The notes under the pieces are model-generated. The model searched no databases, was not told the DNA's origin, and worked only from the letters and a program-made list of their open reading frames with translations. The translations under genes and the position numbers were made by a program. A stretch of 48,834 nucleotides of DNA from Clostridiales bacterium (GTDB lineage: Bacteria; Bacillota; Clostridia; Christensenellales; Borkfalkiaceae): contig SVIN01000014.1 of assembly GCA_015069495.1 (NCBI GenBank), positions 1 to 48,834 on the forward strand. The letters are read 5' to 3'. Position 1 is the stretch's first letter, and each line of letters opens with the position of its first letter. Of this stretch, positions 19,532 to 22,849 are shown piece by piece.

Positions 19532-19560
19532 TTGACAGAATGTAAAAATAAGAATATAAT
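19532..19560 (+). promoter_or_regulatory. Sigma-A promoter of the amino-acid ABC operon
   Basis: TTGACA at 19532-19537, 17-bp spacer, TATAAT at 19555-19560; consensus at both boxes. AT-rich sequence with ATTCA-type half sites lies upstream, but no clear operator. Confidence 0.9.
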
Positions 19561-19604: not shown

Positions 19605-20417
19605 ATGAAAAAATTTATGGCACTTGCCTTGGCAACCCTCGCAGCATGCACCACTTTTGGCTTCGCTTCTTGCGGTAACAACGCAAAATACGTAGCAAGC
19701 CCCATCGCATCGGATGCAAACGAACAATACGCTTTTGCAATCGGTAAAAACGCAACGAAGAAAACCGAAATCCTTAACGCGATGAATAAGGTTATCGATG
19801 AAATCGACGTTGCAAAAATCGTAGAATATTACACCGCAGTTGCAAGCAACGAAATCCCTAGCGTTGGCCTTGATTTTGCAAATCTTGCAGACAACACCGC
19901 AGGCACGTTGCAAGTTTACACCAACGCAACGTTCGATCCCTTCGAATTCCGCGATGAAGCAAATGCCATTGTCGGCGTAGACATGTACATTATGGAATTG
20001 GTTGCAGAAGAATTGAACATGAAGGTAAACTTCAACGACATGGACTTTGACGGTATCGTTGGTAAAGTGGCAACAGAAGACAATGCAATCGGCGCGGCAG
20101 GTATGACGGTTACGGAAGAACGTTTGGAAAAGGTTGATTTCTCGAACACCTACTTCTCCACCGTTCAATGCATCATCAGCAAAGAAAGCGAAGCATTTAA
20201 ATCCATGGACGATTTGAAAGGCAAGAAGATTGGCGTACAGAAAGGTACGACGGGTTGGCTGCTTATCGATGAAGCGATTAAGTCGGGGGCGTTGAAGGAT
20301 ACGGGCGCTGAAGTTCTCGCTTATGACAACGGCCCCCTTGCATACTCCGCTTTGAAAGCTGGCAAGTGCGACGTTGTCGTTATCGATGAACTTCCTGCAA
20401 ATAAGCTTGTTAAATAA
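19605..20417 (+). CDS. Polar amino-acid ABC transporter substrate-binding lipoprotein, apparently circularly permuted
   Basis: A 270-residue lipoprotein. The signal peptide ends in the lipobox FASC (Cys23), so it is anchored outside the membrane. The segment order is unusual. Residues about 35-80 (SDANEQYAFAIGKNATKKTE to AKIVEYY) match what is normally the C-terminal end of a PAAT-family binding protein. Residues about 103-268 run from GTLQVYTNATFDPFEF through GMTVTEERLEKVDFSNTYF and GKKIGVQKGTTG to CDVVVIDELPANKLVK, which is the canonical N-terminal to central part, and then stop. The usual last segment is thus moved in front rather than lost. The permease and ATPase follow after a weak terminator. 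The ligand is probably an amino acid. Confidence 0.85.
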   Translation: MKKFMALALATLAACTTFGFASCGNNAKYVASPIASDANEQYAFAIGKNATKKTEILNAMNKVIDEIDVAKIVEYYTAVASNEIPSVGLDFANLADNTAGTLQVYTNATFDPFEFRDEANAIVGVDMYIMELVAEELNMKVNFNDMDFDGIVGKVATEDNAIGAAGMTVTEERLEKVDFSNTYFSTVQCIISKESEAFKSMDDLKGKKIGVQKGTTGWLLIDEAIKSGALKDTGAEVLAYDNGPLAYSALKAGKCDVVVIDELPANKLVK

Positions 20418-20483: not shown

Positions 20484-21155
20484 ATGTTAGATAGTTTTTA
20501 CGACGCTTTAAAAGGCGAACGTTGGACTTGGTATTTTGAAGGTCTTGGAAAAACCCTATTGATTTCCTTAGGTGCAATCACCCTTGGTTGCATCCTCGGC
20601 ATAATTGTTTCCTTGATTAAATACACCAACAAAAAGTACGGAAAAATGAAGATACCCAGTTATATCTGCGATATCTATCTTGCCATTTTCCGCGGAACCC
20701 CCGTGTACGTGCAGTTGTTGATTATGTACCTCATCGTCTTAGTCAGCGTACCCAGCATGTGGGTCGCCATTTTAACCTTTGGTATCAATTCTGGGGCGTA
20801 CGTGGCGGAAATTATCCGTGGCGGTCTGGAAGGTGTAGACGATGGTCAGTTGGAAGCGGGCAACTCTTTGGGGCTTAGCAATCTTCAAGTGTTAATCTCC
20901 ATCGTTTTACCGCAAGCCATTCGACGCGCTTTGCCCCCTTTCTGCAACGAGTTTATTGCGTTGATTAAGGAAACCTCTATCGTCGGTACAATCGGCGTAT
21001 TGGACTTAACCAAAATCGCAGAAAATATTATTGCGAAAACCTACGACCCGTTTGCGCCTTACATCATCATCGCATTGATGTACCTCGCGGTCGTATTGTT
21101 GTTGACGTATCTTTTGAAATTACTGGAAAGGAGGTTAGCGAAGAGTGATCGATAA
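20484..21155 (+). CDS. Polar amino-acid ABC transporter permease
   Basis: A 223-residue His/Glu/Gln/Arg/opine-family permease. TM segments lie near 22-45, 60-80, 85-108 and 190-215. The EAA-type coupling loop is [32 protein letters not shown], followed by [18 protein letters not shown]. Full length for the family. AAAAGGAG precedes the ATG. The end overlaps the start of the ATPase gene by 11 bp. Confidence 0.93.
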
Positions 21156-22035
21156 TGCAAAAACACCCATTTTACAGGTCAACAATTTACACAAATCCTT
21201 TGGCAAATTGGAAGTATTGAAAGGCGTCAGCATTGACATTTACAAAGGCGATGCCATTGCCATCATCGGTCCCTCGGGATGCGGTAAATCCACTTTTTTG
21301 CGTTGTTTGAACCTTTTGGAACAACCCAGCGCAGGGGAAATTCTTTTCGAAAACGAATACATGTTCAAAAACGAACGCGTATACCTCAAACGCCAATTGA
21401 AAAAAATGAAGCAGGCGCAAAAAAACGGTGAGGAATTTAACCAAGAAGCATTTAACGCGCTGACTGCGCAGTACAACGAATTGCGTACGGCGGAAAAGGA
21501 AATTGAAAAATCAGTTGCAAAAAACATTAACTTGCACCGTCAAAAAATCGGTATGGTTTTCCAACAATTCAACCTGTTCCCCCACCTCACGGTTATGAAA
21601 AATATCACCCTTGCGCCCGTGAAATTGAAGAAACTGACGGAAGAAGAAGCGCAGGCAAAGGCGATGGAATTGTTGAAAAAAGTCGGATTGGAAGACAAAG
21701 CCGACGCATACCCTGCTACCCTTTCGGGCGGTCAAAAACAGCGTATTGCCATCGCACGCGCCTTGGCAATGGAACCCGACGTCATGCTGTTCGACGAACC
21801 CACCTCTGCGCTTGACCCCGAAATGGTCGGTGAAGTATTAAAGGTTATGACCGAACTCGCGCAAGAAAACATGACCATGATTGTGGTAACCCACGAAATG
21901 GGTTTTGCAAGAGAGGTTGCCGAACGCGTTATTTTCATGAGCGAAGGCGTTATCAAGGAAGAAAACAACCCCAAGGATTTCTTTGAAAATCCCCAAGACG
22001 AACGCTTGAAGGACTTCTTGTCCAAGGTATTGTAA
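21145..22035 (+). CDS. Polar amino-acid ABC transporter ATPase with an inserted helical segment
   Basis: A 296-residue ATPase; the family is usually about 240-250. Walker A is [15 protein letters not shown] (about 38-52), the Q-loop is [15 protein letters not shown], the signature [15 protein letters not shown], Walker [15 protein letters not shown] and the H-loop VVTHEMGFA. The extra length lies between Walker A and the Q-loop (about residues 72-130), a Lys/Glu-rich probably coiled-coil stretch running from [20 protein letters not shown] to [14 protein letters not shown]. The start is GTG at 21145, inside the end of the permease gene, with AGGAGG nine bases upstream. Energises amino-acid uptake with the two preceding proteins. 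Confidence 0.92.
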
Positions 22036-22039
22036 AATT

Positions 22040-22798
22040 ATGCTTTTTAATTATCACACACATACAAAACGCTGTCGTCACGCAAGCGGTGAAGACAGAG
22101 AATACGTCGAACAAGCCATTGAAAAGGGCATACAGGTGCTTGGTTTTTCCGACCATGCCCCCTACCTTTTCCCGAATAAGAACTACTACTCCTCTTTCCG
22201 TATGTTCACCGATGAGCTGGAAGAATATGCCGACAGCGTACGCTCTTTACAGAAAGAATATGCGAGTGATATCCGCATCCTCTGCGGGTTCGAGTTGGAG
22301 TATTATCCAAAATTCCACGAGGAAGAAAAGAAATTTTTAAGCAAGGTAAAACCCGATTATTATATCATGGGTCAGCATTTTAGCGGTAATGAAATCGATT
22401 CCCCGTACGTACCGTACATGGAAGGCAATGACAACCTCACCGCGTATATTTCACAGATTTTGGAAGGGTTGAAGACGGGGGATTTCCTCTACCTTGCCCA
22501 CCCCGATTTAGCGGGGTATCATTACCCCGAGGAAGTGATTCAGCGGGAATATAAACGGCTTTGCGAGGGCGCAAAAGCACTGAATATTCCTCTGGAAATC
22601 AATTTCCTTGGTTTGCGCACAGGACGGCATTATCCCGACCGTAGATTTTTTAAAATCGCTGCAGAAGTCGGCAATCCAATTATTTTTGGTGCAGACGCGC
22701 ACGAACCCTGCTACGTTTGCCATGAAGCAACGGAAAAAGAAGCTTTGCAATGGGTAAAGGATTTGGGTTTACAACTTATTGACAAACCGATTTTATAA
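22040..22798 (+). CDS. HisJ-family histidinol-phosphate phosphatase (PHP domain)
   Basis: A 252-residue PHP-domain metallophosphatase. Metal motifs are YHTHTKRCRHA (about 5-15), FSDHAP (about 36-41), GFELEYYP (E near 92), GQHFSG, LAHPDL and GADAHEP near the end. This matches the K02-type histidinol phosphatase family (HisK/HisJ), which forms L-histidinol, although PHP phosphatases can act on other phosphate esters. It begins 4 bp after the ATPase stop and so is in the amino-acid transport operon. No other histidine gene is nearby. A very strong hairpin terminator follows. Confidence 0.82.
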   Translation: MLFNYHTHTKRCRHASGEDREYVEQAIEKGIQVLGFSDHAPYLFPNKNYYSSFRMFTDELEEYADSVRSLQKEYASDIRILCGFELEYYPKFHEEEKKFLSKVKPDYYIMGQHFSGNEIDSPYVPYMEGNDNLTAYISQILEGLKTGDFLYLAHPDLAGYHYPEEVIQREYKRLCEGAKALNIPLEINFLGLRTGRHYPDRRFFKIAAEVGNPIIFGADAHEPCYVCHEATEKEALQWVKDLGLQLIDKPIL

Positions 22799-22816: not shown

Positions 22817-22849
22817 GCCGCCGCGGTTATGAAACCGCGGCGGCGTTTG
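22817..22849 (+). terminator. Strong GC-rich terminator
   Basis: GCCGCCGCGGTT pairs with AACCGCGGCGGC across a 4-nt loop, then GTTTGTG. It lies after the HisJ-like gene and convergent to the ABC exporter operon, so it may serve both strands. Confidence 0.8.

Follow-up and report, generated by a model that had tools for sequence, protein, structure and literature searches.

The gene at positions 19605-20417 of the window, the whole stretch of 48,834 nucleotides of gut Clostridiales DNA analyzed in the present study, raises the question of whether its product is a circularly permuted binding protein of the PAAT family (family 3, SBP_bac_3), as a reading of the sequence alone had claimed, or merely a shortened one, and of how often such a permutation has arisen. 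The open reading frame covers exactly these positions on the forward strand, begins with ATG, and encodes 270 amino acids. Our reading, to which we assign a probability of about 0.87, is that the product of this gene is a permuted but functional binding protein for amino acids, anchored by a lipid and serving an ABC importer of the PAAT type, and this figure includes the predicted fold and the origin and recurrence proposed below. The features of the locus are as follows.

19532..19560, forward strand: sigma-70 type promoter, TTGACA-17 nt-TATAAT, 12/12 consensus, by pattern alone (the region has 10 such sites, where shuffles give an expectation of 6.3)
19605..19670, forward strand: predicted signal peptide, residues 1-22, with lipobox-like FAS-C, by sequence
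19671..19673, forward strand: Cys23, presumed lipid anchor, by sequence
19686..19706, forward strand: residues 28-34, new N-terminus, equivalent to the canonical last lobe-2 strand (residues 30-69 align to the profile starting at position 171; modelled strand at 29-33)
19719..19844, forward strand: residues 39-80, strand-helix-helix unit from the C-terminal part of lobe 1, now at the front (profile, shuffles, model, identity to L009, dN/dS)
19845..19901, forward strand: linker, residues 81-99 (19 residues), joining old C-terminus to old N-terminus (dN/dS 0.544 against L002, 0.318 against L032)
19902..20174, forward strand: lobe-1 N-terminal unit plus hinge 1, residues 100 to about 190, including Arg173 (profile from position 2; end approximate)
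20175..20414, forward strand: about residues 191-270, rest of lobe 2 up to the helix that follows VVVID, with Asp261 (profile match stops at 164 of 223)
20484..21155, forward strand: permease (BPD_transp_1; PF00528, 2.1e-22)
21145..22035, forward strand: ATPase (ABC_tran; PF00005, 1.2e-38)

Chain order of the binding protein

The Pfam match of the protein to SBP_bac_3 (PF00497) was restricted to residues 102-218 (79.4 bits against a cut-off of 26.4). Upon searching with a canonical profile of 223 positions, built from 97 unpermuted relatives, residues 30-69 were matched to profile positions 171-207 and residues 101-270 to positions 2-164, and the same reversed two-piece pattern was observed in 12 of 12 examined proteins of this type, with a best rotation of 160-170. 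The window protein scored 215.4 bits with the profile rotated at position 165, compared with 197.3 bits unrotated; among the canonical controls, 96 of 97 scored best unrotated, and the remaining one was better by 0.7 bits at rotation 210. Thus, by both the profile and the rotation tests, the canonical lobe1-lobe2-lobe1 order is absent from the window protein. Judged by these matches, the protein is a circularly permuted PAAT binding protein, and the claim of the sequence-only reading was borne out by profile order, rotation, and shuffles. The predicted order of segments is the last lobe-2 strand, hinge 2, the lobe-1 C-terminal unit, the linker, the lobe-1 N-terminal unit, hinge 1, and the rest of lobe 2, which shows why Pfam gives the protein as a fragment.

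In this order, lobe 1 becomes continuous in the chain, lobe 2 is split, and both crossovers are intact, supporting the earlier proposals that the permutation makes lobe 1 continuous and moves the lipid anchor. The permuted segment was indeed present after the lipobox, although it begins at about residue 28, earlier than the residue of about 40 first suggested, and the lipobox-like cysteine is residue 23. By contrast, the proposal that one hinge strand is opened did not survive: the last lobe-2 strand (KYVASPI) lies at the new N-terminus, and therefore the cut point is within lobe 2; the first piece runs unbroken from this strand through hinge 2 into lobe 1, so that no hinge strand is opened. 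A cut at the hinge was dropped, as the profile puts the cut near position 165, in lobe 2. The hinges of the window protein were placed on our own assumption of where they lie in GlnH.

A truncated canonical protein, with its C-terminus lost and an unrelated tether as its first 80 residues, would also be expected to match Pfam only at residues 102-218, and the moved segment on its own is weak in the clade of the window protein (about 10-18 bits). However, residues 25-98 scored 15.3 bits at the expected profile positions, whereas none of 5000 shuffles reached that score (maximum 12.4). Moreover, residues 28-80 share 17 of 36 positions with the canonical protein L009 of the same genus (78 of 164 for residues 100-270) and are constrained, and the moved segments of seven other proteins with the same cut (L008, L011, L018, L023, L024, L026, and L029) scored 26-40 bits. 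The chance control for L023 failed, with 25 of 1000 shuffles matching the segment, because the chosen cut shortened this segment to 30 residues; rotation of the whole protein was clear, at 172.3 against 142.3. Four distinct orthologues with the same order and 56-80% identity, namely L002 (identical to L031), L032, L033, and L034, end at the equivalent point, and no separate C-terminus follows the stop. Truncation is thus very improbable, and a permuted chain is the reading retained here.

Structure model

The AlphaFold2 model of residues 24-270 had a mean pLDDT of 89.8 and a pTM of 0.79. The first six 10-residue blocks had means of 80-97 and elements in the order E-E-H-H, as expected for the canonical C-terminal unit; residues 28-80 are thus predicted with high confidence as strand-strand-helix-helix. 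The alignment for the model contained four orthologues and 45 canonical fragments, none given as a C-terminal piece; of the 45 fragments, 44 begin no earlier than model residue 60 and the other begins at 57. In a structural comparison, among the 50 matches listed, 29 begin at model residue 72-78, but 20 begin at 26-29 and so extend by one residue or more into the moved part, beside the start of the target; these 20 weigh, if anything, against the permuted reading, and a sequential alignment of this kind cannot show permutation.

Function and genomic context

Constraint was observed on the moved segment. Against L002, the dN/dS was 0.127 for residues 28-80, 0.544 for the linker, and 0.083 for the rest, and against L032 the corresponding values were 0.107, 0.318, and 0.175; against L033 and L034, dS was saturated outside the linker. 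We take R173 as the arginine that binds the amino-acid carboxylate and D261 as the aspartate that binds the ammonium group. Among the rows filed as type A, the cut type of the window protein, the arginine was conserved in 67/67 and the aspartate in 66/67 (one row, L214, is cut at 124-130), and each was found in 102/103 canonical rows. Homology to AncQR extends over residues 99-265 (1.1e-36). SBP_bac_3, Lig_chan-Glu_bd, and NMT1 were the only Pfam families matched at E up to 1, and at this threshold there was no match to the Type I sugar-binding family or to the glycine-betaine-binding family (OpuAC/ProX). In an NCBIfam scan of seven proteins, the curated cut-off of no substrate-binding model was reached.

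The stop at 20417 and the permease gene are separated by 66 nt. A permease was the next gene for 62 of the 65 proteins filed as type A, with one fused (L029, 547 aa), one with a permease upstream only, and one with none seen. For type B, a second cut type described below, the permease was next in 25 cases, fused in one, and without room in six. For the 107 proteins filed as canonical, which include the permuted L212, L143, L032, and L198, the permease was next in 29 cases, a permease or ATPase was upstream in 69, none was found in four, and there was no room in five; L212 and L143 were counted as permuted in the 60-row tree, its clade tests, and the arginine and aspartate tally. A PHP-domain protein (1.2e-14) is encoded at 22040-22798, starting 4 nt past the ATPase gene; by eye, we take it to be histidinol-phosphatase-like, a possible hint that histidine is transported. 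A strong hairpin at 22817-22844 after this gene (12 pairs, 10 G-C; pattern match only) possibly marks the end of the operon. The genome itself, a MAG of 1.74 Mb, has the 19605-20417 gene as its single SBP_bac_3 match; this assembly is 76% complete, and therefore another PAAT gene may be missing from it.

Taken together, the retained arginine and aspartate, the constraint on the moved segment, the permease as the next gene, and the single SBP_bac_3 match argue for a working binding protein. A degenerate gene or a mis-assembly might be suspected, since the nearest relatives, L031-L034, come from MAGs. However, the frames are open and conserved with the same order in several assemblies, the dN/dS is low, a consensus promoter match is present, and type-A proteins also occur in three single-contig genomes (G462, G485, and G586), leaving this explanation the least credible of those weighed here. 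For a working permuted protein, we propose that the chain would fold to the usual two-lobe clamp, with lobe 1 folding from one continuous stretch and the anchor holding lobe 2 instead of lobe 1. An amino acid would be bound between the lobes, and the clamp would close and deliver it to the neighbouring permease as in GlnH.

Relatives and cut sites

The distribution of this order was surveyed with a junction profile of 140 positions comprising the C-terminal unit, the linker, and the N-terminal unit, and a genome was counted when the match of a frame began at junction position 12 or before and reached at least position 134, as tallied by eye. Matching genomes numbered 18/57 in the genus (E 1e-8), at least 54/248 in the order (E 1e-8; frames under 400 aa only), and at least 62/393 in the class (E 1e-18; including four frames of 501-537 aa and a G310 frame with internal stops), and a phylum sample gave 5/398 at E 1e-28, all from the class of the window protein; these counts are samples with differing thresholds, and permutation is not proven by a junction match on its own. 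All 28 loci taken from the class search, L170-L197 (27 distinct, as L182 repeats L181), contain a permuted frame. In the viral contigs searched, no relative of the window protein was found. The order is shared by relatives across Clostridia, where other cut sites were also encountered, a recurrence that the sequence-only reading had not noted.

For the survey of cut sites, the canonical profile was rotated in steps of 6 against 202 different frames shorter than 420 aa, among which permutants are over-represented owing to the search. The native order or a margin below 8 bits was observed for 103 frames, and the other 99 were rotated. Of these, 66 have their cut at 160-172 (type A) and 29 at 76-106 (type B, including L080, which is placed at 76 and is interrupted by a contig end), with a further three at 124-130 (L203, L214, and L215, all from the genus of the window protein; L214 runs past the retrieved stretch) and one at 22 (L198). 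The L198 protein closes with the first lobe-1 strand, after which come the stop and, downstream, a permease (2.3e-44 to that of the window). By rotation, therefore, permutants in Clostridia fall at four cut sites, near profile positions 165, 97-110, 124-130, and 22.

With the lobe borders that we assume, three of the four sites (97-110, 124-130, and 165) lie in lobe 2, and selection might drive permutation if lobe-2 anchoring altered docking or tether geometry. In text excerpts of the report on the permuted glucose-binding protein TpMglB-2 (PMC4990184), tethering was likewise suggested as a possible reason for permutation. However, wide searches favour lobe-2 cuts because the junction profile needs a continuous lobe 1, the L198 cut lies in lobe 1, and neutral permutation explains the pattern equally well. 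Thus, we regard selection as possible and on the unlikely side.

Several fusions were also observed. In L029:1306-2946 (547 aa), a type-A binding protein is fused straight to the permease, so that the new lobe-2 C-terminus leads into the membrane domain. The transporter fusions L199, L200, and L204-L207 carry an array of binding domains and a permease in one chain, with the ATPase as well in L204 and L207. The arrays of L199, L200, L205, and L206 start in lobe 2 (profile 95-103) and end at 88-104; that of L199 reads as half, three, and half domains, possibly four tandem type-B units, and a single type-B unit is present in L207 (919 aa). In Lachnospiraceae, 13 type-B paralogues (L037, L041, L053, L054, L068, L070, L074, L075, L080, L088, L089, L105, and L109) share a retrieved stretch with a canonical binding-protein gene. 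All 13 are without the backbone-binding arginine (V in 11, S in one, a gap in one), and S-A replaces T-T of the GTT motif; therefore, a different ligand may be bound.

Recurrence of permutation

Close relatives were observed to differ in chain order. After rotation, the type-A protein L166 and the canonical L006 were 66% identical over 214 columns (31/55 in the moved and 114/167 in the unmoved piece), and L153 (type A) and L157 (type B) were 65% identical over 210, with both pieces contributing. Trees of rotated sequences interleave canonical, type-A, and type-B proteins. The number of type-A changes required was five on a 52-row tree and nine on a 60-row tree, at least eight of the latter being forced by well-supported branches. 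A single clade of all type A was rejected on the first row set (p 8.4e-5) and on another (p 1.7e-5), and a single clade of all type B, likewise one of all permuted proteins together, was rejected on the first. The clade of the window protein groups with the permuted L212 and L216 and the canonical L019 (96/91), within a group of 21 rows, 14 of them canonical (98/91). For smaller groups, named after the trees had been seen, uniting the window clade and the large type-A clade gave p 0.18 on the first row set and 0.023 on another, uniting the window clade, L212, and L216 without L019 gave p 0.023, and pairing L166 and L194 without L006 was not rejected (p 0.39). A canonical protein, L211 (G183:C40), is nested in the large type-A clade, representing either a reversal or a separate type-A gain.

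One ancient permutation, with the interleaving due to poor resolution of short alignments (223-227 columns), would be consistent with the p of 0.18 for the window clade joined to the large type-A clade and with a reversal in L211. Against this, an all-type-A clade is rejected on two row sets, different cut sites cannot share one event, and the L166/L006 and L153/L157 pairs combine closeness with different orders, and we consider a single event improbable. According to the trees, then, permutation arose more than once in Clostridia, and a single origin for all proteins with the cut of the window protein is rejected. A broader proposal, which we favour with some reserve, is that this Clostridial family repeatedly switches topology, through many separate permutations at at least four sites, with some pairs about 65% identical, possibly in both directions, and feeding multi-copy fusions of permuted units. 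If true, such repeated switching would offer a natural setting in which to observe circular permutation as it happens.

Origin of the permuted chains

Herein, we propose that a canonical gene underwent tandem duplication or fusion and then lost both outer parts, whereby the old C-terminal tail would have become the linker. Both canonical proteins of L019 have a C-terminal tail that the L212 linker matches (scores 53 and 55; 0/5000 shuffles each), and their genes lie side by side. The L212 linker, the paired L019 genes, and the tandem domains of GlnPQ favour duplication, fusion, and end loss, a route that is likely as traced in this one relative and not in the window protein. The window linker as a remnant of a canonical tail was dropped, with 7 and 628 of 5000 shuffles for the two L019 tails; its best tail match comprises EYYTA and its neighbours, at the helix end.

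Comparison with known systems

The window protein has in common with GlnH, LAO, and AncQR, all of the PAAT family, its homology, the ligand-anchor positions, and an operon with permease and ATPase, whereas the termini of those proteins lie in lobe 1 and those of the rotated window protein in lobe 2. Engineered circular permutants of PAAT sensors have reportedly been made (Clifton in 2017, Whitfield in 2015), and the family is said to tolerate permutation; those proteins are artificial, whereas the window protein is natural, and natural permutants would provide further material for biosensor design. The tandem SBD1-SBD2 of GlnPQ (6h30) has the same C-terminus-to-N-terminus junction as the window protein but consists of two complete canonical domains, and is thus a model for the presumed intermediate and not a permutant. 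It was the only chain whose best stretch spans the junction among the 60 listed of 83 PDB matches, and by best stretch no permuted PAAT chain was found among the 60 rows listed in each of two PDB comparisons (83 and 75 matches), a negative that falls short of proof. Likewise, no natural PAAT permutant was found in the literature among the matches listed, which were mostly titles and abstract openings, with preprints and most subscription journals outside the scope.

Other families of binding proteins already include known natural permutants; we found none described for PAAT, in which the recurrence and the multiple cut sites are the new part. The excerpts on TpMglB-2 (Tp0684), a 'Type Ic' glucose-binding protein, describe a natural, lipid-anchored permutant that retains ligand binding and has relatives in gut Gram-positives (PMC4990184). 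Both it and the window protein are natural permutants of ABC binding proteins, the anchor being predicted in the latter; as far as those excerpts describe it, TpMglB-2 differs in belonging to the Type I / cluster B sugar family, in being cut elsewhere, and in having a fourth crossover that should be unnecessary in the window protein. Among glycine-betaine-binding proteins, permuted versions were recognized through structure comparison, with less than 24% identity in the part of the report available (PMC2395249). On the evidence of these partial sources, known natural permutants of binding proteins have a permuted part with little sequence similarity left to their unpermuted relatives, whereas the permuted and unpermuted PAAT forms described here are up to 66% identical, and such close pairs allow the tracing of junctions, comparison within the same transporter, and a test of anchor position.
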